Assembly (NCBI RefSeq): GCF_018320785.1
Contig: NC_054870.1
Location: 4,722,933-4,786,932, forward strand
Source: Cheilinus undulatus
Lineage: Eukaryota > Chordata > Actinopteri > Labriformes > Labridae
Reading direction: 5' to 3'
Length of the DNA: 64,000 nucleotides
The translations under genes and the position numbers were made by a program. A model generated the notes under the pieces. That model searched no databases. It was not told the DNA's origin and worked only from the letters and a program-made list of their open reading frames with translations. Below, one piece after another: positions 36,595-64,000 of the stretch. How positions within the stretch are numbered: the stretch's first letter is position 1; each line of letters begins with the position of its first letter.

Positions 36595-38195
<1,601 letters not shown>

Positions 38196-38209
38196 TAATC
38201 AACTCTTCA

Positions 38210-40692: not shown

Positions 40693-40699
40693 GTTTGAC

Positions 40700-41350
40700 A
40701 TTGTAGCCATATCATCTTATCCTCCTCCTCATGAACTTGACATGAACATGTTTATTCCTAAACTGTTGTAAATTACATTTTTCTTAGAGTTGTATTTATG
40801 TACAATTGATTGATTCTCTCTCACATCTTTTATGTACTTAACACTTCTTAGAGCTAAATTTTTTTTGAAATTGTGCAATTTTGTACAATGTACTTGACAT
40901 ACTACACATTTCTATAATTATGGCTGCTGTAAGCCGTAATTATTTAAATAACAAATAAATGCCTGAAATATTTCACTTTGTGTGTAATTAATATATTAGT
41001 TTCACTTTCTGAATTGAATTACTGAAATAAATGAACTTTTCCATGATATTATAATTTAATGAGCTGCACCTGTAGTTTTAAAAGCATAATCAGATAACAT
41101 TTAAAGTGATGGGGCATTGCTCTGTAGAGATAAAATTCTCACCTATTCATCTGTATTAACCACAGAAGTGTGACACATGACAGCTGATTGTCTTTTGCCT
41201 GTTCAGATTTTAATAAAGCAGTCATCTGATGTTCCATACAGTGAATAATCTGTAACGTAAACACACTGTTACACATTCAGCATTACATCAAAAATTCATA
41301 CAAGTTCAAAATAAACATATTTACATTACACACAGTGACTGGATTTGAAC
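40700..41350. other. Spacer between convergent ISL2EU-type genes
   Basis: AT-rich, no ORF. It presumably holds the 3' ends of both transcripts. I could not identify terminal inverted repeats. Confidence 0.4.
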
Positions 41351-41353
41351 ACA

Positions 41354-42249
41354 TTACATGCATTTCTGCATGTAGACATGGAAATAAAACCTGTCCACTT
41401 TGTATTTGATGACATCAAACATGTCACTGTTCTTGTAAATTCTTTGAATTAGTATGTCTTCCTCAGCTGAGACAACAAAATCACACCAGTTCATTCCTGT
41501 TATCAGCATATGCCCTTGTACTTGTGAGTAATAAGCATGTGTTTGTTTGAGCTCCAATTTGCCTGAACTCATTTTGAGATACGGGCAGTCAATGTAGCTT
41601 TTAACATTTGGACACTTAATTTCAATCAAACCAAACTGACATGGCTCTGAAGGGTCGAAAATTAACCCATCGGGAGATGCCCCCAACTAAGGGGTGTCAG
41701 GGTGGATTACAAATCCACAGGGGTAGTGATTGACCCTCTTCATCTGGCAATACTCCCAGATGGCGTCTGCCTCCATGTCAAGCCCCCTCTTCATAGCTGC
41801 AGTCTGACGGGTCCCCCGAAGTAGCCGGTCAGCCAGACTGTCAACAGAGCTCTCTCTGACCTGACAGATCTCCCTGAACCGTGAGGCGGTCAGTCTAGGC
41901 CTCCTTAACTGATGCCATTCACCACATGAACTTTGTGGTCTTGTAGCACACTCAAATTTGTGCACAGTGTATCAAGTGACCTCAAGACTTTTAATGTGTA
42001 GCTGTTGTGGTTCACTGCAGACAAACATGCAACTGGATGGCTGCAGGCGGTAATTCTGAAGAACCAGAGAAGGAGGTGGTGGGGCATCATGGAAGAGCAG
42101 GTCTCTCTTTGCTGTTGCTGGTATGACAATGGACTTCCAGCTTGAACCAGGCCAAGGGCAGAGTCAACCAGAGGAACTTCACAGCTGATGCCCATGCTGC
42201 AGGTCACCGGCGCTTCAGCTGCAGAGAAGTCCTTATACATCTCTGTCAC
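41354..42249 (-). pseudogene. YqaJ-type nuclease exon(s) of an ISL2EU-like element
   Basis: Minus-strand frames of 114, 92 and 110 aa run end to end with breaks. The last two carry RLTASRFREICQ, then GASPDGLIF and LIEIKCP, the D...ExK nuclease signature of the YqaJ/lambda-exonuclease fold, followed by a KLELKQTHAYYSQVQGHM segment typical of the domain. A TAG at about 41,687-41,689 interrupts just before GASPDG, and a frame shift near 41,950 separates the upstream part. In ISL2EU transposons such a protein is encoded alongside the transposase; its role in transposition is not settled. Ends with TGA/TAA-type stop at 41,354. Confidence 0.75.
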
Positions 42250-42259
42250 CTAGGGAAGT

Positions 42260-42970
42260 AACAAATCATTATTAACATACCATAAACAGTCCCCATACTC
42301 TGAATGAGCAACATGTGAGCATGTTACTCATTATGCACAGGGCCGCACCCCACTACAATTAATTTCATAATGGAGGACCCTTGTGTAGACATTCTCATAT
42401 TGCTTTTAGTTCAAAAAAAATTTCCCCCACTTCAAAGCAGAATACTTGTTTAAATATGTTTTATGAAAATGGGGGAAATAATAAAATTGTGAAATATCAG
42501 TGTAGGTATACCAATTTTGGTTGACATCAATTGTACTGTCCTGTGAAATCTGATATTGTTAATCCAACAGAGAGATCAGGTAAATCCCCACTGAGGCCTT
42601 TGTACAGTGTGCTCCTGTGTGAAGCATAAAACTTACGTAGGTATCATACACATATTTTCATTCAAACATTCATGCAGACTATTTTAAAGGAGTCATCACC
42701 AGGAAGTCGCATTTTTCATTGTTCTTACACGTATATTGTAGTCGGACTTTAGTTGAAACTTAATGACATCAGCTCAGGAGGATCTTTGTAAAAACCCTGC
42801 CTGTCTACCACCACCACCACCCTACCATTTCCTGCTCAGCATATGAGCTCTTACACTGCAAAAATATCTGTCTTACCTCTAGTCCCAAAGGGCTAGTCAA
42901 AACCTTGTGTGTATTCTCGTGTGAGACACAGTATGGCAGCCAGCCGCCACAAGCACAATGACATTAGAAG
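42260..42970. other. Probable intron of the ISL2EU-like gene
   Basis: No ORF. It lies between the YqaJ exon and the Penelope-like insertion. Confidence 0.35.
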
Positions 42971-42972
42971 TT

Positions 42973-43045
42973 TGAATGAATGATTGATTGAATCAATCAA
43001 TCATGAACGGATGAATGAATGAATGAATGAATGAATGAATGAATA
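42973..43045. repeat. (GAAT)n microsatellite
   Basis: GAAT/GATT repeats directly abutting the inverted start of the Penelope-like element. It may have been the insertion site or have been made during insertion. Confidence 0.85.
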
Positions 43046-43429
43046 GATGACATGTCTTTAGCTAAAGGTGAGTATGGGATGGCACATGTGATCCTATTGT
43101 TAGATTAGCTTTTTTGTTAGAAAAGTGATTGGAAGCCTCTTTTACCCACTCTTTTTGTAACCTCTTTGTAAAATCTATTTTCTAAATCAACGCTTTGACT
43201 TTTCAAGTCAGCATCTGAACTACAGATGCGGCGTATATGATGGAACCGAAAGTTAGGAAGGCTTCTCTTTAAAGAAGTGGGATGGAAAGACTGACCATGT
43301 AAAAAAGAGTTTCTATCTGTTGGTTTCCTGTATTAGATGGTGCTTAAACTTCCATTATTGTTGATAATTAGTATGTCCAAAAAGTTCATTTTGTAAGGAT
43401 CATGTGCCATGGAGAATTTCAAATGTTCA

Positions 43430-44478
43430 TGCTCATGAACCTGTGTCCAATATATGCATTTCTGCTCTTAGCAAAGGACTTTTCTTTTGTCCTACTACCC
43501 ACTGTAAAGACTTCAATGTTTACATTGATGTACAGAAATTTTTACGCAATCCGCGTCCGAAGGAGTTTTTTAAAGACTACCAAGGTTCTGCACATGTTCA
43601 TACTCCACAAGAAACCTCTGGGGCCTCCCCCTCTAGAGATATGGACACTACCGCTCATCAGGAGACACCATCATCTATTGTTTCCAGACCTAGCACTCCC
43701 TTTAAAAGGTGAATCCACCCTCATTCCCCCAAAACACAGAAATTCATCCATAGACACTTACTGCAGACTAGTAGAGAGAAACTTTTTACATTTGCTCTAA
43801 AATAAGAAACAATACAAAGTCATGCATAATCTGACCAAAAGAATGAGCTGGACACTCTGAAAAAGGACAACTTCATTGTTATTAGCAATGCTGACAAAGG
43901 TGGTGCACTGGTTATCATGGACAGAGTTTCCTATAATGCAGAGATTCTGCAACAACTAGAAAATGAGAAATTCTATCTCAAACTACCTGGTAACTCTACA
44001 ACCAAAATGCATGGTTGTTTGGACAAGCTCCTTCTCAGCAATGATATCACCAAGCAGGAACATGCCTTTATGCTGGTCAGCTCCCCCATTATCCCAGTTT
44101 TTTACACATTACCTAAGATACACAAAACTTACAGTGATGTCCCTCCTGGCAGACCCATTGTGACCACTACAGGTTCCTTAACAGAAAAAATATCTGCCTT
44201 CATAGACTATTTTCTACAACCTTGCATCACATCATTACCCTCTTACATCAGAGACTCAATTGACTTCATCAAAACCTTACAAGCTGTTGAACACAATACA
44301 GAGAATTGTTTTCTAGTCACTATGGACATTGAATCCCTATATACAAATGTTCCCATACAAGAGGGAATGAAAGCAGCTGAACTTTTCCTCCTACAAGAAT
44401 CCTCCCATACATCCAGCATCACATGCCTATTAGAGCTAATGCAAACTGTTCTGACCAACAACTATTTATGTTCGACAA
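43430..44478 (+). pseudogene. Penelope-like reverse transcriptase, N-terminal part
   Basis: The upstream region is broken over two frames (43,404-43,800). The frame from 43,917 upstream to about 43,850 reads NADKGGALVIMD, FYTLPKIHK, PPGRPIV and the motif A stretch MDIESLYTNVPIQEG. The SLYTNVP context with LPKIHK is characteristic of Penelope-like enzymes rather than LINEs. The frame runs intact to the hAT-type insertion point, where NNYLC is cut. Confidence 0.85.
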
Positions 44479-46439
44479 CAGTGTTGATTTTGTCGACTAA
44501 AACTATGACTAAAACTGTTCGTCGAAAGCCATTTTTCCATGACAAAAACTAGACTAAAACTAACAAAAATACACCTGTGATGACTAAAACTAACAAAAAA
44601 TAAGTTTAATTTTTGTCAAAATTACTACAACTAGACTAAGGGCGTACTCACACTAGGCCATCCGTACCGTGCCGTATTCTAACCGTGCTGAAGCCCATTT
44701 CACCCCCTCCCCTGTCCCCCTTTTGGCCCACACTCACACTGCTCAACGCATCCAGGCCTGGGCGCGGATACGTCACGCGCCGACGTCATCACACGAAGTA
44801 TCCACCGTTCATGACTTTATAGGTGTCGATGACTCAGTATGTATAAGTGTTGTTTTTTTAGGCTGTAAAATATCAACAGATTTATACGATATTTGATCTG
44901 ACACCAGAGGTATTTCAGCTGACACCTGACATCAGCAGCTACATTAACTATACAGAGCCCAGTGAGGAGAGAGAGAGAAAAAGCGGTTCACAGCGGAGAA
45001 TTATCGCTCACAGCATATAATCTGGAGTCTGATCAGAGTAACAAGCACTTCTGATGAATGAAACCCGGACTTTTTATCTCATATGAGCCCCTACAGCTGC
45101 TCTTCTGCGTGTCAATATACTATCTGAATCCCCGTGGAATTGTTTTACGCGCCCTGAACTGAGCCTTTTCTCTGCGTTTGGATACCTTTCAGTGGTGCAC
45201 CAAACAAGCTCTCATGTCACCAGACAGTCTGTGTTCAGAGCAGGATTAAATGTTCAGATAAAAGATGTTTTTAACAGTGACGAGAGCTATTTTAACCCTC
45301 TGATGAAAGCTGGAAGTGAATGCGCCTCAGGATTAATAAACGATGTTCTGTCCAAACGTCAGCGATCAAGATCCCAATTTCACTGCTTGGTGACATGAAA
45401 TAGAATTAGAGGTAAGTTAATTCAGTGGATGATACTTTGGTATTATGCTTTTTAGTAAGAGAGGTTAAATCAGCCGTGAGATTAACCGGCACACACTTGT
45501 CCGCATATTTGGCACTCTGCTTTACGCATGGAGGACGAAAGGTGTTATCCCGTGAGCTGCTGTTTGTCACTAAAACAAGGGAAGAAGTTTTATTTCACAA
45601 ACCAAAAAACCTCTTACAGTCATTAAAGCCTGACTTTGTTTGAAACTGGTCAGAAATGTGGACTGGACTGGGATCCATTAGAAAGAGGTCATGGAGTTGT
45701 GCGAAGTGAAATTCTTCAGCTCTTATAAAATCTTTGTAGCTTGATGAAATACAGTGAGACAAAATACATATTTCTCTCTCTCTTGAAAATCCTGCTGTCT
45801 CTGCAGCTGCTACCTCTGCTCTGGGGCGGGTCCTTTTGTTGTTACTTGATGCTACGTCACATTCCCGCGTTTGTGCTCCTTCATTTGCATCCGTGCCGTG
45901 CTTAGGCCCACCTCGTCCATCCGTGCCGGGGCCGCGAAGCATGCCGTGCCGAAGCACAGAACGATTGCACTCACACTGACCAAACATACCAGACTTTAGG
46001 CTGAAACGGGCCTAGGCACGGTAAGGATGGCCTAGTGTGAGTGCGCCCTTACAAGTAATTTATTTTTCGTCGGACATTCAAAATCTGTAGTATTTCTCCA
46101 CTGTGGGTAAATCTGTCAAAATGCAATGCATCTGTATCTCTTCTACCTCTCAGCTGTAGAAAGCAGGGACCCCAGGTTTAGCAGAGTGCAAAGAAGACAG
46201 GACCATGACTTGGTACCAAATTTAGACAAGAAAATAAATGCTTGGACTAAAAGTCAAGACTAAAATGTCAAGACTTTTTATGGAAAAAACTAGACTAAGA
46301 TGTTTTGAGTTTTCGTCGACTACAACGACAAAAATTGAAAAGGGTAGAAATGACTAAAATGTGACTAAAACTAAAATGCATTTCATTTAAAGACTAAAAC
46401 TTAAACTAAAATTAAAAATAGCTGCCAAAATTAACACTG
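44479..46439. mobile_element. hAT-type element inserted in the Penelope-like RT, 8-bp duplication
   Basis: Ends CAGTGTTGATTTTG and CAAAATTAACACTG are inverted repeats. They are flanked by exact TTCGACAA at 44,471-44,478 and 46,440-46,447. Sub-terminal ACTAAAACTATGACTAAAAC-type repeats resemble 26,130-26,625. It is interrupted by a second inverted-repeat element at 44,637-46,051. Confidence 0.92.
44637..46051. mobile_element. Inverted-repeat DNA element nested inside the hAT-type element
   Basis: Terminal inverted repeats of about 37 bp with about two mismatches: TAAGGGCGTACTCACACTAG... at the left and its complement ending ...GTGAGTGCGCCCTTA at the right. The interior is 1.4 kb with CG-rich segments and no recognised domain. 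The open frame at 45,595-45,987 (minus) runs into the TIR and is probably fortuitous. No clear target duplication outside TAA/TTA. Confidence 0.85.
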
Positions 46440-47725
46440 TTCGACAATGACTTTTTCTTACAGGTGTCAGGGGTCAGTATGGGATCCAAAATGTCTCCCA
46501 GTTTTGCATCACTGTATGTCGGAAAGTACAAACAGGACGTCGTACTGAACCCTGCAAGGAATCCTTTCCTACAGTATATTACCACACACAGAAGGTACAT
46601 AGATGACATTTTTTTCATATGGACCTCTACCGAGGAGTAACTCAGAGATTTCAATAACTTTATGAACACTCAAAATGAACATTTGAAATTCCCCATGGCA
46701 CATGATCCTTACAAAATGAACTTTTTGGACATACTAATTATCAACAATAATGGAAGTTTAAGCACCATCTAATACAGGAAACCAACAGATAGAAACTCTT
46801 TTTTTACATGGTCAGTCTTTCTATCTCACTTCTTTAAAGAGAAGCCTTCCTATCTCTCAGTTCCATCATATGCGCCCCATCTGTAGTTCAGATGCTGACT
46901 TCAAAAGTCAAAGCGTTGATTTAGAAAATAGATTTACAAAAAAGAGGTTACAAAAAAGAGTGGGTACAAGAGGCTTCCAATCAGTTTTCTAACAAAAAAG
47001 CCAATCTAACAATAGGATCACATGTGCCATCCCATACTCACCTTTAGCTAAAGACATGTCATCTATCTACTTCTAATGTCACTGGCATGTTATTGCCACG
47101 GATCCAGCCCTTAAGGATCATCTAGTAAACCCACCGTGGATTGTTTTTAAGAGACCTCTGAATCTAGGTAACATGCTGGTGAGAGCAGACTGCTCCGTAA
47201 CCCCGACATCTCACCAACCCACATTTTTGAGCACCCTGGGACCTGGCAACTATAAATGTGTTAATTGTCAACAGTGTAACTTTACTCGCAAAACGAAAAC
47301 TTTCTGTCATCCACACACAGGCAAAAGCATATTAAAGGCGTCATTTCACGTAAAACTTCTAATGTCATCGATATGCTTAAATGGCCCTGTGGACTTGCTT
47401 ACATAGAAAAAAACCTCCAGACCTTTAAAAAATAGGATTTCAGAACACAGAAGTGCCATCAGAAAACCATGACAAAAAAGTCTTGTAGCTAACCACTCTG
47501 ATCTGCAGAGCCATTCAGTTGCCTCTTCAAGTCACACTGGTATTGAACATGTCACACTCCCACAGAGAGGAGGAGGTATTAACAACATTCTCTTTTAACA
47601 TGAGGTATTCTGGATATATCCTCTTAATACATTATCACCCAAAGGTCTCATTGAAGAGATGGATATCCACCCCCTTTTATAATGTGCATGCTGTGGTTCA
47701 CCTCTGCCACTATTACTCAATCATC
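46440..47725 (+). pseudogene. Penelope-like RT C-terminal part and GIY-YIG endonuclease remnant
   Basis: After the hAT-type insertion the frame continues as VSGVSMGSKMSPSFASLYVG (motif B) and RRYIDDIFFIW (motif C with YIDD), then KMNFLDILI and YRKPTDRN. Stops occur near 46,638 and 46,770. From 47,100 a further frame shows PGNYKCVNCQQCNFT and CGLAYIEKN. The latter is a decayed GIY-YIG core in which the usual Gly after YI reads Glu. SEHRSAIR follows in another frame. The element is inactive. Confidence 0.8.
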
Positions 47726-48664
47726 CTATAGATTTATGAATTTGTGCTCCGAACTGTTAGTTGTGAAAGTCGTGTAATATTGTCTATAAACTGGTCTGTT
47801 TTGCTATTTATCACTATGCTTTATCAATGACCTGGTTTCTTAAGATTATTCAGGGTAATAGCTTCATAGAATGACAGGATCAGATGTATTTACCTCTCCT
47901 GATAGGATGACGGTTCATCTCTGACTCATCAATAGCACCCACAGTACTTCAGGCGCTGCTTTAATAATGTACTTTATGACGGCTTCTAGCCTGATAATCA
48001 TTACATTATACCGTGGAGGTTCTCAGCCCACTTATATATTTGGTTCTCTGTACTTTATCAAAGTGTAAAAATTGTTGTTTTTTTTTTTACTGCAATCTAC
48101 ACAGTCATGCTCTGGTCCTAGAGCTACATGTGCAGGATTTGTTACATTTGACTTATCTCTATAATTAGGTGTACATATAAGCACTATATCTTGAACATTT
48201 GAAATTGTAAGTATTGCACATAACCACTGGGTCGTATGTTTATGTTTTTTTGTTTGTCCTTGAAACATGTTCATGTGATGACTCTGAAATCAGATCATGT
48301 GATCGTCTATGTGATTACCTTCACCTGCATGTAATGAGGCGCTCTGCACTTGTCACTTTAGTCTGATGAAGAGCTACTCCACTCGAAATGTCACATTGGT
48401 GCAATAAATAATTATATTTTTGGAGCCCTGCAGTGTGCTAGACGTCCCTCTGTTCTCCTTTAATAAATCTACAGTATTCGGCTTTTACCTTACACCCTCT
48501 GTTGTTGCTCCACACTTTGGTTTAGCAGACAGCACAGCCATCTTACGCACAGGGCCTGGCTTCACACCCTATCAAGTTAGGCAGGATATAGTTTAGAAAA
48601 TATCACCAACACATGTATAATGACTGTACAACAGGTAAATATGCCTTTTTTTTTCTTGACTTAC

Positions 48665-48854
48665 CAAAGTTCTGGGCTTGTGCCATTGGTGTTCTCCCTC
48701 AGCTCAGCACAGGGGGGACCACTGGCACCTTCAGCTGAGAATAATGTGCTGACTGGAAAAACAAAGCCACACAGTGGTTACATAAAGTTGCTCCAGCCAC
48801 ACAGGTGCAGCTGTGATGCATCAGCTCCATAGGACTGGAATCTTTCAGTACTAC
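48665..48854 (-). pseudogene. SWIM zinc-finger exon of the ISL2EU-like gene
   Basis: Minus-strand exon with acceptor TTTTGCAG before 48,854 and donor GTAAGT after 48,665. It reads HHSCTCVAGATLCNHCVALF, a CxC...CxH SWIM zinc finger, then SAHYSQLKVP. A TGA follows at the LS codons. After a one-base shift the end reads HQWHKPR, so the copy is broken. SWIM followed by YqaJ is the expected order for this kind of protein. Confidence 0.65.
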
Positions 48855-49221
48855 CTGCAAAAGAAACATGTTATGGTTAATACTTATTAGTCTTGGCTTG
48901 TTTCATTGTTTAATCATTCTTTAGGAACACAATCTGGGTTTTTAAAATAATTTCTATATCTAATAGCTACTGAGAAAATGTCGTGTGTTACATTATTTTG
49001 TATAAAATTCCAACTGCACTAGATCAATATCCCTAATCGATTTCATTGATTCATGATATGAATCATGACTACCTACAACACCAGCGTGCACCTTAAATGA
49101 ATGACTAATTTCAGGTAAAACATAGCTAATAACAACTGTGAGAAGCACAAGAAGATACAAAAAGACCTGATGAACGAAATATTAATCAACCCAGTGGGGA
49201 CCAGCTAAATAAACTCACCTG

Positions 49222-50187
49222 TAGGGATGTAACGATAACCAGTATCACTATAAACCGTGGTAAAATTCGAGAAGGTTAGTAATACAGTTTCAAATTTGAA
49301 TTATTGTTAAAACCGTGTTTGATTACCGCACTTTGAAAACTCACGGTGATACTGCTCAATTCCTGGAGCGCTCTGTGACAGTAATGCAATTTCATGGATG
49401 CCAGCTGCCGTTAAACACCAGAGAAGAAAAAGAAGCAGCAGCACTCTCTCAGATGCAGAAGTGCGCAGTTTTAAAACATTGCAGAAGGTTGTAAAGGTTG
49501 GGGATTTCTTATAGATAAATAGTATGTTAATATAATTATATATCATAATAATATAATATAATAATAATAATATTTAAAATTTTTTTTTTACCTAATTAAT
49601 AATAGATTTATATTATTTAGTTATTATATTATTTCTTCTATTTCTCATGAAGGAGAGAACAGACTATCAGTGTGGTTCATTTGATTTGTATATATTATCA
49701 TGTTATTTTAAACACTTGCACTGTGGATTTGTTTACATGTGATTGTATTGTTCTTACATCCACATTACTTTAATATGTTTGTATGCTCATTTGATTCCTA
49801 CCTAAGGTACACCAAACAGTGAAAGTGTCTATTCTGTATCAGTTCTTCAAAGAAAAGTAATTTTATCTACAACAGTTACCCCTTACGGCCATAAGGTGCC
49901 ATCTTTAATGCACATTTATTTTTATTTATTTATGGTATTTCAATGTTTCTGCCACATTACTTTGTTTAAAGTGGAAGAGTTGCTTTTATATGCACATTTG
50001 ATTTTTATTTAAGGTACATGAAACAGTGAAAGTGTTCTTTCTGTACCAATTTTCTTAGATTCAGTGTGTGTATAAGTACTTTTTAAACATTTTGAGCACA
50101 TTTAAACAATACCGCAATAATAATGATAACTGTGATAATCTGGTCACAATAACCATTATATGAAATTTTCATATCGTTACATCCCTA
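49222..50187. mobile_element. hAT-type element inserted exactly at a splice donor
   Basis: Ends TAGGGATGTAACGATA and ATATCGTTACATCCCTA. Exact 8-bp duplication CTCACCTG at 49,214-49,221 and 50,188-50,195. On the minus strand the duplicated bases read CAGGTGAG, a consensus 5' splice site. No transposase frame is seen over 966 bp. Confidence 0.92.
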
Positions 50188-50192
50188 CTCAC

Positions 50193-50616
50193 CTGCCTTC
50201 TCTAGCCAGTGTTTTCATCCTATTAAGAGTTAAGTCACATCAAACATGAGTCTGAATCCCTAGGAACATCAGGAACACTGGGTTATAAAAAAGTGCTGGT
50301 AACAACATTGTAACATGAACAAGACGCATGCAGTAACCCAGTGGCGACCAGCAAGGTAAACTTACCTGTTATTTTATCCACTATTTTTATTATGTGCAGA
50401 TTAGATTTAAGTGTTACATTAAACATGTATAACCTTAGCTAAGCCCCCAGGAACATCGGGAACACTGGGTTGTTACAGCAACAGGCTTATGACTGTTGTC
50501 TTATCGATCCTAGCTTCAACATACTCTCAAACTGTGGGGCTTCTCAGCTTTCTTCGTGGATCTGTAACAAAATGCCCTGACAACCACTTTACCTGTGGCT
50601 TTATCTTTGTCTGACA
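50193..50616 (-). other. Candidate micro-exons of the ISL2EU-like gene
   Basis: On the minus strand: 50,616-50,593 (24 nt, acceptor CGCAG, donor GTAAAG), 50,380-50,366 (15 nt, acceptor ATAG, donor GTAAGT) and possibly 50,201-50,193 (9 nt, acceptor CTAG, donor GTGAG). All are phase 1 and would encode short Lys/Thr/Gly segments (LSDKDKAT, VDKIT, EKA). The second and third lie in a duplicated unit: a GGAACATC(G/A)GGAACACTGGG block recurs at 50,452 and 50,264. Predicted from splice signals only. Confidence 0.35.
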
Positions 50617-50757
50617 CTGCGAGGGACATAAAGTTAATACAGTTAGCACAACAACTAACGTTTACAATGAAGAAAGTACGAAACAAACACAAAGCTAAGA
50701 AATTAGCACGTTGCTAACGTTAGCTGGCCGGCTAATGTCAACACAGAACCTACTTAC

Positions 50758-50905
50758 GGTCGTACTGGTGCAAATAACTGGATATGTACAGACGAAACCC
50801 CTTTTCCTGTTTACTATTGGGAGCAGGGGAGTGGGCATCCACGATACGATGAACATCATTAATTAAAAATTTTGGCAAGTTTTGCAGACATCTTGAAAAA
50901 TTCAT
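50758..50905 (-). pseudogene. N-terminal exon of the ISL2EU-like gene
   Basis: Starts at the minus-strand ATG at 50,905 and reads MNFSRCLQNLPKFLINDVHR to KGFRLYISSYLHQYD. The donor is GTAAGTA, beginning at 50,757. Its sequence resembles the N-terminus of SWIM/YqaJ proteins I remember from fish genomes. Position upstream of the SWIM exon on the same strand supports one gene from 50,905 to 41,354, now split by insertions. Confidence 0.5.
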
Positions 50906-51227
50906 GGCGATGCAGATGAAGCCGGAAGGCAACCGGAAACGGACCTGCCGATCTCTGGCGAAAATCGGAAGTACATCAGGAGGCTTGTGTACAGATCAGG
51001 GGAATTCCCTAATCAGGGGAATTCCCTAATCAGGGCGATTCCTTCATCAGGGGAATTCCCTTACCTCATAGGATGAAAGGACGAAAGAACCATAAGACAC
51101 GCCCTTCAGCATAGCAGCAGTGTTAAATATTTAAGATATTAGATTATACACTTTGTGTTAAAATCAATCAAAACTTTACAACCGTTTTTTTTTTTTTGTT
51201 TGAAGGTAAGCTTAAAAAATAATAAAA
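50906..51227. promoter_or_regulatory. Divergent promoter region with ETS-like and kappaB-like motifs
   Basis: 322 bp separate the minus-strand ATG (50,905) from the + strand coiled-coil ORF (51,228). It has three ETS-like GGAA sites (GCCGGAAG, ACCGGAAA, TCGGAAGT between 50,921 and 50,973) and a 17-bp tandem repeat at 50,994-51,063. A long T-run followed by GAAG/GTAAGC lies just before the + start and might be a splice junction. Motif-level inference. Confidence 0.4.
50994..51063. repeat. 17-bp tandem repeat with palindromic GGGAATTCCC
   Basis: Four units of about AATCAGGGGAATTCCCT. Three hold the perfect palindrome GGGAATTCCC (51,000-51,009; 51,017-51,026; 51,051-51,060). The third unit is altered to GGGCGATTCC. 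GGGAATTCCC fits the NF-kappaB consensus GGGRNWYYCC. Confidence 0.85.
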
Positions 51228-54200
51228 ATGAGCCAACAAGACTCATTAGACATTGTCAGTGTTCCGAATGAACCTGACAACCTCTGCCAAGACAATCAGC
51301 CCCCCGACAATATTGTCACAGACCTCCAAGAAAATAAAGGCCGTCGCAGAAACACAGGAGCGCATCTTAGAAACGTTTGGAAGTGCCGAGGCAAGAAAAA
51401 CAAGGAAGTTCAAGAGAAAAATGAGGCATTAACAAGTGAAAATTTTGCCTTGAAGGAAGAAATCGGTGCCTTGAAAATCCAGATGGAGTCTCTTATAAGA
51501 ACAAGAGATATGGTCTATTCTGAGATGGAAGAGTGGAAGGGAAAGTTTGAGTCCTCTGACAATGAGCTTCAGGAGGCCAAAATAATGCTACTCAATCACT
51601 CCAAAGTCAAGGATCAGCAGAGACAGGACTTGAAAAACATAAAACGTTATATTGGAGATGAAGACATGGACTTCTGTAAACATGCTGATAACTTGTTCAA
51701 CAGGTGGGACGATTTATCATCACAAAATGAAGTGCTCAAGGAGCCAGACGTGGTTAACAAGACTGAGACAGAGGCCTTGCTAGGGGAAGCTAGTGGAGGT
51801 CAGCAAGACTTCACTGCAGACAACGAGGCTCACAAAGTGGACTTGCAGAAGCAAAGCGAAGACCTTTCTAACTGTAGGGACAGGTGTGATTCAATGTCCG
51901 CTGAAAACATTGTTTTAAGGGCCGAAAATGAGGACTTGAAACAACAAAATAAGGTGTTACAACAACAGTTGCTCAATGCAGAAACTGCAATGGAAGCATC
52001 AAGGACTGAAAGTCAAAACCTCTCTGTAGAAATCACGGACTTGCAAAGAAGGAATGAAAGCTTGTGCTCCGAAAAAGACAATTTGGAGACAGAAATTAAG
52101 GCCCTGTCCCAACAAAATGAAGAGACCGAGGAGAAATTGTTCCTCGAATTTGAAAATGAAAGGTCCAGCTTGCAAGATGGCCTCAGAGAGCTGACTGCAG
52201 ACAACGAGGCTCAAAAAGTGGACTTGCAGAAGCAAAGCGAAGACCTTTCTAACTGTAGGGACAGGTGTGATTCAATGTCTGCTGAAAACATTGTTTTAAG
52301 GGCCGAAACTGAGGACTTGAAACAACAAAATGAGGTGTTACAACAACAGTTGCTCAATGCAGAAACTGCAATGGAAGCATCAAGGACTGAAAGTCAAAAC
52401 CTCTCTGTAGAAATCACGGACTTGCAAAGAAGGAATGAAAGCTTGTGCTCCGAAAAAGACAATTTGGAGACAGAAATTAAGGCCCTGTCCCAACAAAATG
52501 AAGAGACAGTGGAGAAATTGATCCTTGAATTTGAAAATGAAAGGTCCAGCTTGCAAGATGGCCTCAGAGAGCTGACTGCAGACAACGAGGCTCACAAAGT
52601 GGACTTGCAGAAACAAAGCGAAGACCTTTCTAACTGTAGGGACAGGTGTGATTCAATGTCCGCTGAAAACATTGTTTTAAGGGCCGAAACTGAGGACTTG
52701 AAACAACAAAATGAGGTGTTACAACAACAGTTGCTCAATGCAGAAACTGCAATGGAAGCATCAAGGACTGAAAGTCAAAACCTCTCTGTAGAAATCATTG
52801 ACTTGCGGAGAAGTTGTCTACGCTTGTGCTCCGAAAAAGACAATTTGGAGACAGAAATTAAGGCCCTGTCCCAACAAAATGAAGAGACAGTGGAGAAATT
52901 GATCCTTGAATTTGAAAATGAAAGGTCCAGCTTGCAAGATGGCCTCAGAGAGCTGACTGCAGACAACGAGGCTCAAAAAGTGGACTTGCAGAAGCAAAGC
53001 GAAGACCTTTCTAACTGTAGGGACAGGTGTGATTCAATGTCCGCTGAAAACATTGTTTTAAGGGCCGAAAATGAGGACTTGAAACAACAAAATGAGGTGT
53101 TACAACAACAGTTGCTCAATACAGAAACCGCAATGGAAGCATCAAGGACTGAAAGTCAAAACCTCTCTGTAGAAATCACGGACTTGCAAAGAAGGAATGA
53201 AAGCTTGTGCTCCGAAAAAGACAATTTGGAGACAGAAATTAAGGCCCTGTCTCAACAAAATGAAGAGACAGTGAAGAAATTGTTCCTCGAATTTGAAAAT
53301 GAAAGGTCCAGCTTGCAAGATGGCCTCAGAGAGCTGACTGCAGACAACGAGGCTCACAAAGTGGACTTGCAGAAGCAAAGCGAAGACCTTTCTAACTGTA
53401 GGGACAGGTGTGATTCAATGTCCGCTGAAAACATTGTTTTAAGGGCTGAAACTGAGGACTTGAAACAAAAGAATGAGGTGTTACAACAACAGTTGCTCAA
53501 AGCAGAAACTGCAATAGAAGCATCAAGGACTGAAAGTCAAAACCTCTCTGTAGAAATCACGGACTTGCAAAGAAGGAATGAAAGCTTGTGCTCTGAAAAA
53601 GACAATTTGGAGACAGAAATTAAGGCCCTGTCCCAACAAAATGAAGAGACGGTGGAGAAATTGATCCTTGAATTTGAAAATGAAAGGTCCAGCTTGCAAG
53701 AAGGCCTCAGAGAGCTGACTGCAGACAACGAGGCTCACAAAGTGGACTTGCAGAAGCAAAGCGAAGACCTTTCTAACTGTAGGGACAGGTGTGATTCAAT
53801 GTCCGCTGAAAATATTGTGTTAAGGGCCAAAAATGAGGACTTGAAACAACAAAATGAGGTGTTACAACAACAGTTGCTCAATGCAGAAACTGCAATGGAA
53901 GCATCAAGGACTGAAAGTCAAAACCTCTCTGTAGAAATCATCGACTTGCAAAGAAGGAATGAAAGCTTGTGCTCCGAAAAAGACAATTTGGAGACAGAAT
54001 TTGAGAATCTGACGCATTGTAACCAAACTCTCCAAAAACAACTCCAGCTAATGAAAGATGTTGACAAAGAATTTAAGGTGTGTAAAATTCACAATACAAC
54101 TTTGCAGCATGACATTCAGAAGATAAAAGAGCTACTCAGGTTGGAGAAATGCTTGCGTGCACACGAGCAGATCAAAGCATGCCAAAGGGAAGACGCTCTT

Positions 54201-54383
54201 AGTGATCAATTAGGGATGGCCAAAATTCAGCTACGTTTAAAGATCAGATCAGAGTGTTCTGAAAATTGCTTTCATGGGGAGGCCTCTATGCTCAGATCAG
54301 CAGGAGATGAGCTTAATGCTAGCAGGATGGCAGCGCAAAGCAAGAGGCAAGGTTACTCTGGTTTCTTCTCTGGCTGGTTCTAA
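51228..54383 (+). CDS. Long repetitive coiled-coil protein, unrecognised
   Basis: Intact single-frame ORF of 1,051 aa. Function unknown to me. Residues 1-55 are polar with a basic patch (GRRRNTGAHLRNVWKCRGKK). Residues about 60-195 are a first coiled coil. From about residue 196 (DNA 51,813) a 127-residue unit repeats five times in full, with a sixth copy ending near residue 923 (DNA about 53,998). Repeat starts are exactly 381 bp apart. Each unit contains NCRDRCDSMSAENIVLRA, a Gln-rich QQNEVLQQQLLNAE and ESLCSEKDNLETE. The unit is 18 heptads plus one residue. A non-repeated coiled-coil segment follows, and the protein ends in a hydrophobic GYSGFFSGWF tail. Copies are nearly identical in DNA, so the array is young or kept uniform by conversion. 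No signal peptide or clear transmembrane span is seen. The first ATG is used. The lack of introns suggests a retrocopy, a transposon-associated gene or a large terminal exon. Confidence 0.75.
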   Translation: MSQQDSLDIVSVPNEPDNLCQDNQPPDNIVTDLQENKGRRRNTGAHLRNVWKCRGKKNKEVQEKNEALTSENFALKEEIGALKIQMESLIRTRDMVYSEMEEWKGKFESSDNELQEAKIMLLNHSKVKDQQRQDLKNIKRYIGDEDMDFCKHADNLFNRWDDLSSQNEVLKEPDVVNKTETEALLGEASGGQQDFTADNEAHKVDLQKQSEDLSNCRDRCDSMSAENIVLRAENEDLKQQNKVLQQQLLNAETAMEASRTESQNLSVEITDLQRRNESLCSEKDNLETEIKALSQQNEETEEKLFLEFENERSSLQDGLRELTADNEAQKVDLQKQSEDLSNCRDRCDSMSAENIVLRAETEDLKQQNEVLQQQLLNAETAMEASRTESQNLSVEITDLQRRNESLCSEKDNLETEIKALSQQNEETVEKLILEFENERSSLQDGLRELTADNEAHKVDLQKQSEDLSNCRDRCDSMSAENIVLRAETEDLKQQNEVLQQQLLNAETAMEASRTESQNLSVEIIDLRRSCLRLCSEKDNLETEIKALSQQNEETVEKLILEFENERSSLQDGLRELTADNEAQKVDLQKQSEDLSNCRDRCDSMSAENIVLRAENEDLKQQNEVLQQQLLNTETAMEASRTESQNLSVEITDLQRRNESLCSEKDNLETEIKALSQQNEETVKKLFLEFENERSSLQDGLRELTADNEAHKVDLQKQSEDLSNCRDRCDSMSAENIVLRAETEDLKQKNEVLQQQLLKAETAIEASRTESQNLSVEITDLQRRNESLCSEKDNLETEIKALSQQNEETVEKLILEFENERSSLQEGLRELTADNEAHKVDLQKQSEDLSNCRDRCDSMSAENIVLRAKNEDLKQQNEVLQQQLLNAETAMEASRTESQNLSVEIIDLQRRNESLCSEKDNLETEFENLTHCNQTLQKQLQLMKDVDKEFKVCKIHNTTLQHDIQKIKELLRLEKCLRAHEQIKACQREDALSDQLGMAKIQLRLKIRSECSENCFHGEASMLRSAGDELNASRMAAQSKRQGYSGFFSGWF

Positions 54384-55279
54384 TTTCACCCTGACAAAAA
54401 ACACCCCACACAGAAAATTACCAACATTTGGCTTTCTTAATCAAAAATACTAAAGTCAATTACAAAGTCAGAGGCGTGGAAAAATGCCTCCCTGCCGGAG
54501 GAGTCCTCTGAAATGCTGAGTGATTTTTAAAGCGGCTGCTGCCAGCAATAATGTAGAGGTGCTTCAGTGAACGTCACAGCAGAGCCACCCACATGTCCAT
54601 CACAAACCCCCCCCCCCAAAAAAAAATACGTAGAGTACCTCACGATCTCTGTATATTAACATGTATAACGTACTATAAAACGGAGGGAAAAATAAGGTTC
54701 CATCATTAACGAAACTGTTGATGCTGGCATCTCAGCTTTGCTAGTGCTTTTAGATTTGACTGCTTGTTACGGCCTCTTAAAAATTATTCATTTAAACCAG
54801 GGAAAATAAGGCTCGTATTAAAAGAGACCATAACATATAAAAGGACACAGACAAATGGTTTGAGTTTCAAAATAATCCAAGCTTTATTTTAAACAAACGA
54901 GTCAATTAATTAATTAAACATTAAATAAATCAATGAAATCAAAAGGGCTGCAGCCGTCGGCCAAAAAGAACAAAAGAGGGGTGGTGGACTGGCCTACCAT
55001 GCAATGGGCCATTGGACCGGCCACCACCCCCTAACTAAAACTGCCTAACCAAAAGAACTAACTATTTAATCAAGAAAAGAACACAACGAGAAAATAGCAC
55101 TACCGATGACTACAGCCAAACTAAAACAGCAAAACCCAGCAATCTAAACATGCCTGGGGAACAGAAAGAACGGGAAAACAAAATGCTTGGAAAAATAACC
55201 GGATTAATCAATAAACAACAAAAAGAGAAGGTTACTCAAATACAAAGGAAACAAACCTCTCACGCGCTTCTCCATGAGA
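54384..55279. other. 3' flank of the coiled-coil ORF
   Basis: Holds a C-run (54,607-54,617) followed by an A-run, and AATAAA at 54,924-54,929. Facing it is CTTTATTTT (54,890), which would be a poly(A) signal on the minus strand. GGGGTGGTGG...GGCCACCACCCC around 54,979-55,032 can form a hairpin. No ORF with recognisable content. Confidence 0.45.
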
Positions 55280-57480: not shown

Positions 57481-60400
57481 CCCTTTCCAGGTTCCTGAAA
57501 TATATTTCGTGGTCTGTGAACTTTATTTCGTGCTCCATGAAATGTGTTTTTGTTCTGTGAAGTTTCTTTGTGTTTTGTGAAAAATTTTTGTTTTATGAAC
57601 TGTATTTCTGTTTTGTGAATTCATTTTTGTTTTGTGAAATTTATTTTTGGTCTGTGGAATGTATTTGTGTTTTGTGAAATTTATTTTTGTTCTGTGAAAT
57701 GTATTTCTGGTCTGTGAAAAGTGTTTTTGTTCTATGAAATTTATTTTTGTCCTGTGAAATGTGTTTCTTTTCTGTGAAATGTATATTTGCTCTGTGAAAT
57801 GTTTTTCTGTTCTGTGAAATGTATTTTTGTTCTGTGAAATTTTTTATTCTGTAAAATGTTATGTTTAGTGAAATTTCTTTGTGTTTTGTGAAATGTATTT
57901 TTGTTCTGTGAAATGTATTTTTCCTCTGTGAAATGTATTTCTGTTCTGTGGAGTTTATTCTGGTTTTGTAAAATGTATTTGTTTTCTGAAATTTATTTAT
58001 GTTCGGTGAAATGTGTTTTTGTTCTGTGAAATGTATTTTTGTTTTGTGAAATGGATTTGTGTTTTGTGAAATGTATTGGTGTTCTGTGAAATGTATTTCT
58101 GTTCTGTGAAGTTTTTTTTGTTTTGTAAAATGTATTTGTGTTTTGTGAAATGTGTTTATGTTCTGTGAAATGTATTTTGGGTCTGTGAAATGTATTCCTG
58201 GTCTGTGAAATGTAGATTGGTTCTGTGAAATTTATTTTTGTCCTGTGAAATGTGTTTTTCTGTGACATGTATTTTTGTTCCGTGAAATGTATATTTGCTC
58301 TGTGAAATGTTTTTCTGTTCTGTGAAATTTAATTTTTTGTTTTGTGAAATGTATTTGTGTTTTGTGAAATTTATCTTTTTTAATGTGAAATGTGTTTTTG
58401 TTTCGTGAAATGTATTTTTGTTTTGTGAAATGGATTTGTGTTTTGTGAAATGGATGGTTGTTCTGTGAAATGTATTTTTGTTCTGTCAATTGTTTTTTTT
58501 TTCCGTGAAATTTAATTTTGTTTTGTGAAATGTATTTGTGATTTGTGAAATGTGTTCTGTGAAATGTTATTATTGTTCTGTGAAATGTCTTTTTGTTTTT
58601 TTGAAATGTATTTGTTTTGTGAATTCATTTTTGTTTTTTGAAATTTATTTTTGGTCTGTGGAATGTATTTGTGTTTTGTGAAATGTATTTTTTTTGTATG
58701 GAATTTAGTTTTTGTTCTATGAAATGTATTTTGTTCTGTTAATTGTATTTCTGTTCTGTGAAATGTTATTTTTGTTCTATGAAATTTATTTTTTTGTTCT
58801 GTGAAATGTATTTCTGTTCTGTAAAATATATTTGTGTTTAGTGAAATGTATTTTGTTTTGTCAAATTATTTGTTTTCTGTGAAATTAATTTTTATCTTGT
58901 AAAATGTTTGTGTTAAGTGAAATTTCTTTGTGTTTTGTCAAATGTATTTTTGTTCTATGAATTTATTTTTTTTCTTTGAAATGTATTTGTGTTTTGTGAA
59001 ATTTATTGTTGTTCTGTGATAAATGTATTTGGAATTTGTGAAATTAATTTTTTTTGTTGTGTGAAATGTGTTTTTGTTCTGTGAAATGTACTTTTGTTTT
59101 GTGAAATGTATTTGTGTTTTATGAAATTTATTTTTGTTCTGTGAAATGTCTTTTTGTTTTTTCGAAATGTATTTGTTTTGTGAATTCATTTTTGTTTTGT
59201 GAAATTTATTTTTGGTCTGTGGAATGTATTTGTGTTTTGTGAAATGTATTTTTGTTGTATGGAATTTAGTTTTTGTTCTATGAAATGTATTTTGTTCTGT
59301 TGAATGTATTTCTGTTCTGTGACGTGTCTTTCTGTTCTGTAAAATAAATTTGTGTTTAGTGAAATGTATGGTGTTTTGTTAAATGTTTCTGTGTTCTGTG
59401 AAATTTATTTTTATTTTGTAAAATGTTTATGTGTTAAGTGAAATTTCTTTGTGTTTTGTCAAATGTATTTTTGTTCTCTGAAATGTATTTTTGTTCTATG
59501 AATTTAATTTTTTCATTAAAAATTATTTGTGTTTTTTGAAATTTATTTTTGTTCTGTGATAAATATATTTGTGATTTGTGATTTTTTTTTTTGTGAAATG
59601 TATTTCTGTCTTGTGGAATGTATTTTTGTTTTGTGAAATTTTTCTTTGTTCTGTAAAATGTATTTGTGTATTGTGAAATGTAGTTTTGTTGTGTGAAATG
59701 TATTTTTGTTCTGTGAATTTTGTTTTTGTTCTGTGAAATTTATTTTTATTCTGTAAAATGTTTGTGTTTAGTGAAATTACTTTGTGTTCTGTGAAATGTA
59801 TTTTTGCTCTGTGAGACATATTTTTGCTCTGTGATATGCATGTGTTTGTTTTGTGAAGTTTATTTTTGTTTTGTAAAATGTATTTTTGTTTTGTGAAATT
59901 TATTTTTGGTCTGTGGAATGTATTTGTGTTTTGTGAAATGTATTTTTGTTGTATGCAATTTAGTTTTTGTTCTGTTAAATGTATTTCTGTTCTGTGACGT
60001 GTCTTTCTGTTCTGTAAAATAAATTTGTGTTTTGGATAATGTATGGTGTTTTGTTAAATGTTTCTGTGTTCTGTGAAATTTATTTTTATTTTGTAAAATG
60101 TTTGTGTTAAGTGAAATTTCTTTGTGTTTTGTCAGATGTATTTTTGTTCTATGAATTTAATTTTTTCATTGAAAATTATTTGTGTTTTTTGAAATTTATT
60201 TTTGTTCTGTGATAAATACATTTGTGATTTGTGAATTTTTTTTGTGTGTGTGAAATGTATTTCTGTCTTGTGGAATGTATTTTTGTTTTGTGAAATTTTT
60301 TTTTGTTCTGTTAAATGTATTTGTGTATTGTGAAATGTAGTTTTGTTGTGTGAAATGTATTTCTGGTCTGTGAAATGTATTTTTGTTCTGTGAATTTTGT

Positions 60401-60940
60401 TTGTGTTCTGTGAAATTTATTTTTATTCTGTAAAATGTTTGTGTTTAGTGAAATTACTTTGTGTTCTGTGAAATGTATTTTTGCTCTGTGAGACGTATTT
60501 TTGCTCTGTGATATGCATGTGTTTGTTCTGTGAAGTTTATTTTTGTTTTGTAAAATGTATTTGTGTTTTGTGAATTTTTTTTCATTTTCTGTGAAATGTG
60601 TTTTTGTTCTGTGAAATGTATTTTTGTTTTGTGAAATATCTTTGTGTTTTGTGAAATGGATTGGTGTTCTGTGAAATGTATTTTTGTTCTGTGAATTGTG
60701 TTTTTGTTCTGTGAAATTTATTTTTCTTTTGTGAAATGTATTTCTGTGTTGTGAAATTTATTTTTGTTCTGTGAAATTTATTTTTGCTCTTTGAAATGTA
60801 ATTTTGTTCTGTGAAATGTATTTGTGTCTTGTGAAATGTGTTTTTGTTCTGTGAAATGTATTTTGGGTCTGTGAAATGTGTTTCTGGTCTATGAAATGTA
60901 GTTTGGCTCTTTAAAATTCATTTTTGTCCTGTGAAATGTA

Positions 60941-61029
60941 CAGTTGAAAGAAGTTTACATACACTATATAAAAAGGCACATAAACTTTTTTTCTCACTGT
61001 CTAAAATTAAATCAGATTAAACTTTTATA
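60941..61029 (+). mobile_element. Sleeping Beauty-type Tc1 terminal fragment 1
   Basis: CAGTTGAAAGAAGTTTACAT preceded by TA within the satellite. It follows the terminus of Sleeping Beauty-like Tc1 elements and stops after about 89 bp, where inverted satellite begins. Confidence 0.8.
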
Positions 61030-61392
61030 CATTTCAACAAAACAAAAAGACATTTCACAGAACAAAAATCAATTTCAGAAGACACAAACACATTCCACAG
61101 AACAATAATAAATTTCACAAAACAAAAATGAATTCACAAAACAGAAATACATTTTGAAAAAACAAAAAGACATTTCACAGAATAAAAATACATTTCAGAA
61201 GACACAAATACATTTCACAGAACCATTATAAATTTCACAGAGCAAAGATAAATTTCACAAAACACAAATACATTTCACAAAACACAAATACATTTCACGA
61301 AACAAAAAATAAATTTCACAGAACAGAAATACATTTTTACAGAGAAAATATACATTTCACAGAACAAAAATACATGTCACAAAGCACAAATA
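61030..61392 (-). repeat. Inverted segment of the 20-bp satellite
   Basis: About 360 bp in which the satellite reads in the opposite direction (CATTTCACAGAACAAAAAT on the + strand). It lies between two same-orientation copies of a Tc1 terminus. Confidence 0.93.
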
Positions 61393-61743
61393 CAGTTGAA
61401 ACCAGAAGTTTACATACACTGTATAAAAAGGCACATGAACTTTTTTTTCTCACCGTCTGACATTAAATTAGAGATTAAAGATTAGATTAAACTTTTTCTG
61501 TTTTTGGTCAATTAGGATTACCAAAATTATTTCTATTTGCTAAATGCCAGAATAATGAGAGAGATCATTTTTTAGACAATTTTTTATTATTTTCTTGAGA
61601 GTCAGAAGTTTACGTACATTTCATTAGTATTTGGTAGCATTGCCTTTAAACTGTATGACTTGGGTCAAACGTTTTGGATATGCTTCCACAAGCTTCTCAC
61701 AATAGTTTGCAGGAATTTTAGCCCATTCCTCCTAGCAGAACTG
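61393..61743 (-). mobile_element. Sleeping Beauty-type Tc1 fragment 2 with transposase C-terminus
   Basis: CAGTTGAAACCAGAAGTTTA preceded by TA, with an inner TCAGAAGTTTACGTACATT direct repeat at about 61,600 (IR/DR layout). On the minus strand the coding end reads [20 protein letters not shown] and RLTQVIQFKGNATKY, the C-terminus of the Tc1 transposase. It stops at 61,743, where satellite resumes, so only one end of the element is present. Confidence 0.88.
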
Positions 61744-64000
61744 TATTTGTGTTTTGTGAAATTGATGGTCAAATTTATCTTTGTTCTGTGAAATGTATTT
61801 GTGTGTTGTGAAATGTATTTTTGTTCTGTGAAATGTATTTCTGGTCTGTGAAATGTGTTTTTGTTCTGTGAAATTTATTTTTGTCCTGTGAAATGCATTT
61901 TTGTTCTGTGAAATTTATTTCTGTTCTGTGAAATGCATTTTTGTTCTGTGAAATGTATTTCTGTTCTGTGAAATGCATTTTTGTTCTGTGAAATTTATTT
62001 CTGTTTTGTGAAATGTGTTTCTTTCTGTGAAATTTATTTTTGTTTTGTGAAATATATTTGTGTTTTGTGAAATTACTCTATTTTGTGTAAAATGTGTTTT
62101 TGTTTCGTGAAATGTATTTTTGTTTTGTGAAATGGATTTGTGTTTTGTGACTTGGATGGTTGTTCTGTGAAATGTATGGTTGTTCTGTTATACTGTTTTT
62201 GTTCTGTGAAATTTAATTTTGTTTTGTGAAATGTATTTGTGTCTTGTAAAATTTATCTTTGCTCTGTGAAATTTAATATTGTTCTGTGAAATGTGTTTGT
62301 GTCTTCTGAAATGTAATTTTGTTCTGTAAAATGTCTTTTTGTTTTTTCGCAATGTATTTCTGTTTTGTTAATTCATTTTTGTTTTGTGAAATGTATTTTT
62401 GGTCTGGAATGTATTTGTGTTAAGTGAAATTTCTTTTTGTTCTATGGAATTTAATTTTTGTCCTGTGAAATGTATTTTTGTTCTGTTAAATGTATTTTTG
62501 TTCTATGAAATTTATTTTTTTGTTCTGTACAATGTATTTCTGTTCTGTGAAATATATTTTTGTTTAGTGAAATATATTGTTTTGTGAAATGTATTTTTGT
62601 GCTGTGAAATTTATTGTTGTTCTATGGAATTTAATCTTTTCTTGAAATTTATTGTGTTAAGTGAAATTTATTTTTGTTCTGTGATAAATGTATTTGTGAT
62701 TTGTGAAATTCATTTTTGTTGTGTGGAATGTATTTCTGTCTTGTGGAATGTGTTTTTGTTTTGTGAAATTTTTCTTTGTATTGTGAAATCTATTTGTGTG
62801 TTGTGAAATGTATTTCTGGTCTGTGAAATGTGTTTTTGTTCTGTAAAATTTATTTTTGTCCTGTGAAATATGTTTCTATTCTGTGAAATATATTTTTGTT
62901 CTGTGAAATTTAATTCTGTTTTGTGAAATGTATTTTTGTTCTGTGAAATTTATTTTTATTCTGTAAAATGTTTGTGTTTAGTGAAATTTCTTTGTGTTCT
63001 GTGAAATGTATTTTTGTTCTGTGAAATGTATTTTTGCTCTGTGAAATGTATTTTTTTTGCTCTGGTTTATTTTTGTTTTGTAAAATGTAATTGTGTTTTG
63101 TAAAATTTCTCTTTTTTGTGTGAAATATGTTTTTGTTTAGTGAAAGGTATTATTGTTTTGTGAAATGTATTTGTGTTTTGTGAAATGGATGGTTGTTCTG
63201 TGAAATGTATTTTTGTTCTGTTATACTATTTTGTTCTGTAAAGTTTATTTTTGTTTTGTGAAATTTATTTCTGTGTTGTGGAATTTTGTTTTTGTTCTTC
63301 GAAATTTATTTTGCTCTGATAAATGTATTTTTGTTCTGTGAAATGTATTTTGGGTCTGGGAAATGTATTTCTGGTCTGCGAAATGTAGTTTGTTTCTGTG
63401 AAATTTATTTTTGTCCTGTGAAATGTGTTTCTTTCTGTGAAATTTATTTTTGTTTTGTGAAATGTATTTGTGTTTTGTGAAATGTATTTGTGTTTTGTGA
63501 CATGTATTTTTGTTCTGTGAAATGTATATATGCTCTGTGAATTGTATTCTGTTCTGTGAATTTATTGTTTCGTGAAATGTATTTGTGTTTTGTTAAATTT
63601 ATCTTTTTGTGTGAAATGTGTTGTTGTGTCGTGAAATGTATTTTTGTTTTGTGAAATGTATTTGTGTTTTGTGAAATTGATGGTTGTTTTTTGAAATGTA
63701 TTTTTGTTCTGTTGTGTTTTGTTCTGTGAAATTTTATTTTGTTTTGTGTAATGTGTTTGTGTTTTGTGAAATTTATTTTTGCTATGTAGAATTTATTATT
63801 GTTCTGTGAAATGTGTTTGTGTCTTCTGAAATGTTTTTTTTTTCTGTGAAATGCCTTTTTGTTTTTTTGAAATGTATTTCTGTTTTGTGAATTCATTTTT
63901 GTTTTGTGAAATGTATTTTTGGTCCGTGGAGTGTAATTGTGTTTTGTGAAATGAATTTTTGTTATATGGAATTTAGTCTTTGTTCTGTGAAATGTATTTT

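Follow-up and report, generated by a model that had tools for sequence, protein, structure and literature searches.

Myosin II is a familiar example of a protein with a long heptad rod interrupted by one-residue skips. As described, this rod carries charge repeats of 28 and 196 amino acids and has a net positive end (PMC2204051). A second point of comparison comes from inducible genes, as IL-6 and NGAL are examples of NF-kappaB targets, and a crystal structure exists of the p50 homodimer bound to DNA with a 5'-GGGGAATTCCCC-3' core (PMC10527052). The gene described here, C6, can be set beside both. It is an open reading frame (ORF) on the plus strand of a 64,000-nucleotide stretch of Cheilinus undulatus DNA, referred to below as the window, and it encodes a coiled-coil protein with a head, a repetitive rod and a tail.

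C6 is one of at least five head-bearing paralogues with a single coding exon, a kept start, a tail in four of the five and upstream palindromes of the kappaB type. Every paralogue has an internal rod built from a repeat of its own, and the start, the control sites and mostly the tail are kept. Judged by searches that excluded eukaryotic protein databases, these genes are best read as an uncharacterised, fast-evolving and probably NF-kappaB-inducible coiled-coil family whose ends are conserved and whose rods vary in length. The family appears to share with expanded fish immune families such as the TRIMs its dispersed, multi-copy, fast-changing and coiled-coil character; it differs from them in that the heads and tails tested pass no Pfam cut-off for a known domain. 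No relevant account of such a fish family was found in the literature, a search with subscription papers and preprints outside its scope, and absence from print is not claimed. The main features of C6, in window coordinates, are:

50995..51061, no strand assigned: four 17-bp copies in tandem, three of which carry GGGGAATTCCC, a perfect GGGRNWYYCC match of the kappaB type
51228..54383, plus strand: single-exon coding frame of 1,051 amino acids, coiled-coil family member C6 (from the ORF list, stop statistics and paralogues)
51228..51812, plus strand: head of 195 amino acids, starting MSQQDSLDI, with a basic patch of net charge +8 (residues 38-60) and the beginning of the coiled coil
51813..53717, plus strand: rod of five full units of 381 bp (127 amino acids), each with one net register shift and C-x3-C in the core
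53718..54000 (end approximate), plus strand: sixth rod unit, partial, merging into the tail
54001..54383, plus strand: tail ending GFFSGWF, followed by the stop codon

The coding frame, its paralogues and their upstream sites

The C6 frame is uninterrupted over its 1,051 codons. The remaining five frames across the same interval contain 28-103 stops each, and in 200 first-order Markov resamples open frames reached 290 codons at most, which bears out a first-pass annotation, made from the sequence alone, that had called the ORF intact. The 24 inter-unit changes outside one cluster comprise 12 silent and 12 replacement changes where 6.4 silent ones were expected (P = 0.01). Taken jointly with the complete lack of stops in the units, this silent excess gives P = 0.004, and the replacement-to-silent ratio between units is about 0.39 of the neutral one.

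The same annotation had recognised no homologue, a statement overturned by four further head-bearing paralogues in the same genome (1,173,462,691 bases, or 1.17 Gb, in 46 contigs). Loci are named by contig, the window itself lying at C6:4722933-4786932, and genome-wide counts are lower bounds. One search for heads gave C6, C3 and C21, and a query with the C21a head gave C21 (two loci), C6 and C1; tails were found at at least seven places. The four relatives are:

C3, L003:5288 to L007:4797: ATG-to-stop span of 9,411 nt, tail ending CSGWF
C21a, L008:3567-6848, minus strand: open frame of 1,093 codons with a degenerate 117-amino-acid unit
C21b, L018:5756-7837: open frame of 693 codons, with FFSCW followed by ten more residues
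C1a, L017:5680-6882: open frame of 400 codons, self-offset 106, hardly expanded rod, ending FFSGWF

All five head-bearing members share the start M-x-QQD, and SGWF ends C6, C3 and C1a, with FFSCW near the end of C21b. Amino acid identity between C3 and C6 is 64% in the head and 62% in the tail, and C21a shares 41% with the C6 head across residues 1-91. Three further loci, C1b, C21c and C15, are pieces, each with a tail and two of them with rod as well; neither two protein queries nor the M-x-QQD string found a head within 8.5-9 kb of sequence at each. The C6 head query missed the C21b head, and that query alone is therefore no proof that a head is absent. On contig 21 two divergently oriented members begin about 9.4 kb apart (C21:14585847 and C21:14595255) and may represent a source cluster.

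Comparison of C6 with C3 supports the frame more strongly than the residues: the frame is preserved and the residues change fast. The DNA of head and tail is 81-82% identical (18-19% of aligned bases differ). The gaps within coding sequence measure 21, 18 and 72 nt, all three being multiples of three (a chance of about 1 in 27), compared with one of the six non-coding gaps (1, 23, 10, 5, 9 and 4 nt); these counts leave out three gaps at the trimmed edges of alignments, two of 3 nt and one of 12 nt.

Upstream, GGGRNWYYCC matches lie 129-248 nt 5' of the ATG in all five head-bearing loci (three in C6, three in C3, two each in C21a and C21b, and one in C1a). The likeness to NF-kappaB target genes is this kappaB DNA in the presumed promoters; what sets the family apart is that four of its five genes, all except C1a with its single site, carry two to three sites in a tandem of 17-18 bp, and that their induction is a prediction. 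The clusters amount to 11 in 1,500 nt (five upstream stretches of 300 nt), and the remaining 145,507 nt of the count hold 5. The chance of at least one match is 0.0103 per locus, and no cluster was found in the headless pieces (26,003 nt). Nine of the 11 upstream sites take the palindromic form GGGAATTCCC, the remaining forms being GGGAATCCCC, one of its kind, in C3 and GGGAAATTCCC in C1a. Markov resamples of the upstream 400 nt contained on average 0.06 clusters for C6, 0.02 for C3 and 0.03 for C21a.

A tandem-pair pattern derived from C6, C3 and C21a, and fixed before C21b came to light, had four reported matches in the whole genome, before C3, C6, C21a and C21b, and its reversed control had none. 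Since these four places in 1.17 Gb all belong to the family, the pattern offers a simple sequence handle. Between C6 and C3 the stretch from array to ATG is alignable (72% across 171 bases, array included), and blastn detected no likeness beyond the array in the 3 kb farther upstream. On these grounds kappaB control of the genes is considered very probable, and the sites are treated as putatively functional; the fuller claim, that of a paralogue family under such control, is held with somewhat less assurance as likely.

Decay and other regulators as alternatives

Two groups of observations weigh against a maintained family under kappaB control, the first concerning the genes and the second their sites. 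Ratios of nonsynonymous to synonymous substitution rates (dN/dS) between paralogues are high: by NG86 they reach 0.87 in the C6-C3 head (bootstrap 0.54-1.45), 0.79 in the C6-C3 tail (0.47-1.18) and 0.49 in the C6-C21a head (0.24-0.89). YN00 and LWL85 give about 0.9-1.5 (0.99-1.45 for C6-C3), the C6-C21a comparison having been made with NG86 and LWL85 only, without YN00. Tail dN/dS across six pairs is 0.67-1.12, with every interval spanning 1. Because these ratios are high, the ends are under no strong sequence constraint. C21a has no recognisable tail, and the C3 array contains two frame breaks (L003 7790-8103 and L007:92-403, net -2 and -4), which are either assembly errors or real damage; after the second break the reading frame returns to the original one. 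Of the eight loci, three are pieces with neither a head nor a kappaB site nor a whole frame.

A decaying family, with frames left open by inertia and genes drifting towards pseudogenes, would account for tail ratios indistinguishable from 1, for the three loci that are mere pieces and for the broken C3 array. This explanation nevertheless appears improbable, as four frames remain open over 400-1,093 codons, the C6-C3 coding gaps keep the frame without exception, silent changes are in excess among the C6 units and the upstream sites occur in five of five head-bearing loci. It is regarded as nearly certain that the family codes for real proteins.

As to the sites, the third array copy of C6 (51029-51044) has lost the palindrome and the consensus, a loss of one copy in four. 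The Markov resamples reached maxima of three clusters for C6 (at least one in 2,000), one for C3 and two for C21a, and one of 100 window shuffles contained three near-matches to the 14-mer. The Poisson value for the upstream sites overstates their independence, because they share descent and lie in arrays. Finally, the palindromic GGGAATTCCC is able to bind other factors too; Ikaros- and RBPJ-type factors bind GGGAA cores.

This last point leads to a reading in which the rods are translated and play no part in immunity, a different factor that binds GGGAA cores recognises GGGAATTCCC and the proteins are structural, for example in gametes or epithelia. The sites are indeed GGGAA palindromes, and long rods are usually structural. 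Retention of both half-sites in all 11 upstream sites, as an NF-kappaB dimer would need, speaks against it, although this is a weak and partly circular point because the sites were counted by that same consensus. A structural role of this kind is a serious minority possibility.

The rod, its turnover and a proposed role

Tandem Repeats Finder places the C6 array at 51813-53999 (period 381, 5.7 copies). The full units start at 51813, 52194, 52575, 52956 and 53337, and the partial unit runs from 53718 to about 54000. The number of units given by the first-pass annotation stands; their exactness does not, since pairwise identity is 94.7-97.9% (2.1-5.3% different). Indels and stops are absent from all six. 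In unit 3, ten changes are clustered in 24 bases (52798-52821, codons 75-83), as if from a divergent donor, and an 18-nt piece of this cluster had no second match with up to three mismatches within the window.

Two further early observations held: a C-x3-C pair lies at the same place (unit residues 21 and 25) in six of six units, where the register model assigns it to the core positions d and a, and each unit of 127 residues, or 18 heptads plus one, shifts the register by one. A Viterbi register model of our own construction, not a published predictor, puts a single break at unit residue 110 in all five full units. The heptad fit per unit is 40.8 with one inserted residue, 42.7 with two stutters (residues 100-110) and 25.6 with no break, and 200 shuffled units reached at most 24.6. 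The net shift is well supported, and its exact form is not, because two stutters fit slightly better than one insertion.

The long helical rod that had been proposed is likewise borne out by this score above the shuffles and by an AlphaFold model of two units, which forms one helix over residues 2-253 with a mean predicted local distance difference test (pLDDT) score of 88.7. Confidence is low (mean pLDDT 53.4) in the model of the full-length protein, made from the single sequence. Helix gaps in that model had suggested a hinge at C-x3-C, an idea abandoned in view of the single unbroken helix of the two-unit model. The hydrophobic period across five units is 3.52 (power 13.3, shuffled 99% point 6.7), and a lone unit stays under its own shuffled 99% point (5.3 against 6.3). 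The head has a weak likeness to the unit (P = 0.03, register-preserving shuffles), and the shuffle test found none between tail and unit (P = 0.63).

The tail is basic (computed isoelectric point 8.8) and the rod unit acidic (4.3). The C-terminus of C6 reads GYSGFFSGWF, and the interest drawn to this aromatic ending is partly borne out, with SGWF kept in C6, C3 and C1a and FFSCW in C21b. The accompanying suggestion of a membrane anchor fails: no membrane-spanning stretch was found in the C6 protein, because the top 19-residue hydropathy mean, located in the head, is only 0.35.

Paralogue units differ in length, with 127 amino acids in C6 (18 x 7 + 1), 105 in C3 (15 x 7) and 117 in C21a (16 x 7 + 5). 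The rod length had been called tunable, and as evolutionary change among paralogues this is supported. The C3 rod shows 26 anchors of its 315-bp (105-amino-acid) unit, with 22 whole units that are 90-100% alike. The C6 and C3 units have the stretch LSNC..R..S.S.EN..L in common and are otherwise dissimilar. A second motif, ESQN...VEI.DL...NESLC..KDNLE, lies inside the C6 units and in C3 adjoins the tail, outside the 105-amino-acid unit; likeness to the end of the sixth, partial C6 unit also adjoins the C3 tail. The C3 unit scores 32.4 as continuous heptads, compared with at most 19.6 in 500 shuffles, and 37.8 with two compensating breaks. We infer that the presence of a skip residue depends on which stretch was amplified and does not characterise the family.

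These data bear on the analogy with myosin drawn by the first-pass annotation, and on the wider idea of a filament former of the myosin or intermediate-filament kind, with a stagger determined by skip residues and charge repeats. C6 does have a long heptad rod, a net addition of one residue per 127 and an acidic rod followed by a net positive tail, the last as described for myosin II (PMC2204051). It has neither a motor nor the 28-residue charge period (power 0.06 in the unit; top peak 4.05, lower than the mean of 4.81 in the shuffles), and its units are near-identical. The net skip of the C6 unit is missing from the C3 unit, and an intermediate-filament model (PF00038) gives the whole ORF 24.1 bits where the cut-off is 40. 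The myosin-like reading is unsupported because the C3 unit equals exactly 15 heptads and the charge period is absent, and a filament former of either kind is considered very unlikely.

Database matches follow the rod. Above Pfam cut-offs the whole ORF matched ATG16 (1.6e-16; 61.5 bits, cut-off 33.7), HOOK (3.6e-13; 49.6 bits, cut-off 35), KOW2_Spt5 (6.2e-10) and bZIP_1 (2e-7); one C6 unit alone reached no cut-off. These identities were rejected, as one register-preserving shuffle of the unit, set in five tandem copies, passes the cut-offs of five other, unrelated families. Heptad composition is what the C6 ORF shares with HOOK, ATG16, Rod_CreS and other coiled-coil models, and its matches need the repetitive rod: the C6 head alone and tail alone matched no Pfam family above cut-off, ATG16 and HOOK included, and none was found among the paralogue heads and tails tested. 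The earlier annotation had seen it as fatal to its view of the ORF if this proved to belong to a known coiled-coil family or transposon; no such membership emerged from these tests of whole ORF, single unit, head and tail. In PHROGs, the whole ORF matched 13 families of unknown function, the best at 1.9e-10, whereas head and tail matched none; in NCBIfam, ten matched the whole ORF, all below the curated cut-off, and none the head or tail. The whole C6 protein had no match in a sequence search of the PDB and no informative homologue in a public genome contig collection, and a viral contig collection yielded none for the whole protein, head, tail or tail alignment.

On sequence grounds, the product would most likely be an inducible cytoplasmic scaffold or innate-defence effector. 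Infection, injury or cytokine signalling would bring NF-kappaB dimers to the upstream array and start transcription, and the protein may form a long parallel homodimer of about 19 nm per unit, or about 139 nm for C6 residues 56-990, as computed. The acidic rod could serve as a spacer or multivalent scaffold, with specific contacts made at its two ends, by the head through its basic patch and by the tail, which is basic and has an aromatic ending. Unequal crossing-over and conversion among near-identical units would reset the length and sequence of the rod, and the ends would retain the contacts. A part in innate defence is plausible, if somewhat short of an even prospect. The boldest proposal is tentative and rather doubtful: a new NF-kappaB-induced class of fish innate defence whose promoter sites, head and tail stay constant and whose rod is rewritten by tandem-repeat turnover in an arms race. 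If true, each paralogue rewrites its rod, the range in this one genome running from a gene of 400 codons to a span of 9.4 kb that contains two frame breaks, and the geometry of the rod is therefore the part that adapts.

The five paralogues, with like ends and sites and unlike rods, provide a natural series for the effect of coiled-coil length, and NF-kappaB induction would add an uncharacterised family to the innate response of fish. The repeat arrays may also vary in length among individuals.

Surroundings of C6 in the window

Minor features around the coding frame are:

51128..51134, plus strand: possible TATA-like element TATTTAA, weak, by string match only
51184..51205, plus strand: pyrimidine tract ending in AG, possibly the 3' splice site of an intron in the 5' untranslated region or plain leader, uncertain; the AG is present in C3 and absent in C21a
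54384..54461, plus strand: first 78 bases past the stop, homologous to C3 (83%)
54817..54929, plus strand: candidate polyadenylation signals by string match (ATTAAA at 54817, 54913 and 54920; AATAAA at 54924)

Left of C6, the interval 40126-50995 holds ISL2EU-type remains arranged tail to tail. They include a DDE_Tnp_4 transposase piece on the plus strand (40126-40692) and, on the minus strand, what we take to be YqaJ-like (41894) and SWIM-like (48792) motifs; these, and further pieces up to 50995 that we assign to the same element, had no Pfam match. A retroelement interrupts the remains; its inverted ends lie at 43043-43430 and 46675-47066, and it holds weak reverse-transcriptase matches below cut-off.

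That these remains adjoin the ORF could mean that a mobile element, this one for instance, carries C6 as an accessory gene. ISL2EU is described with two ORFs, a transposase and YqaJ (PMC4482050, PMC9179366). The homology between C6 and C3 begins at the kappaB array, inverted repeats around the ORF do not exceed the shuffled level, the near flanks share no 9-mer, and the genome yielded five head-bearing loci, as a lower bound, and not many copies. An origin as an element's cargo is therefore highly improbable. The 17-bp array was also considered as the end of an ISL2EU-type element and rejected; it belongs to the gene because the paralogues carry similar arrays.

No transfer RNA and no Rfam family at gathering threshold was detected within the window. 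A Tc1-type element at 36593-38197 has end segments that are 85-97% complementary and a DDE_3 transposase piece, and further retroelement fragments are present. Three plus-strand exons, which we take to belong to a tlx1-like homeobox gene, lie within 1861-2466 and at about 15040-15240 and 17500-17640. The interval separating the first two contains a 42-bp minisatellite at 2431-3066 and, at 12174-14747, a 2.6-kb array of AGATGATGT. At the other end, a degenerate 20-bp satellite with strand skew occupies 57496-64000, at least 6.5 kb, and continues past the end of the window.

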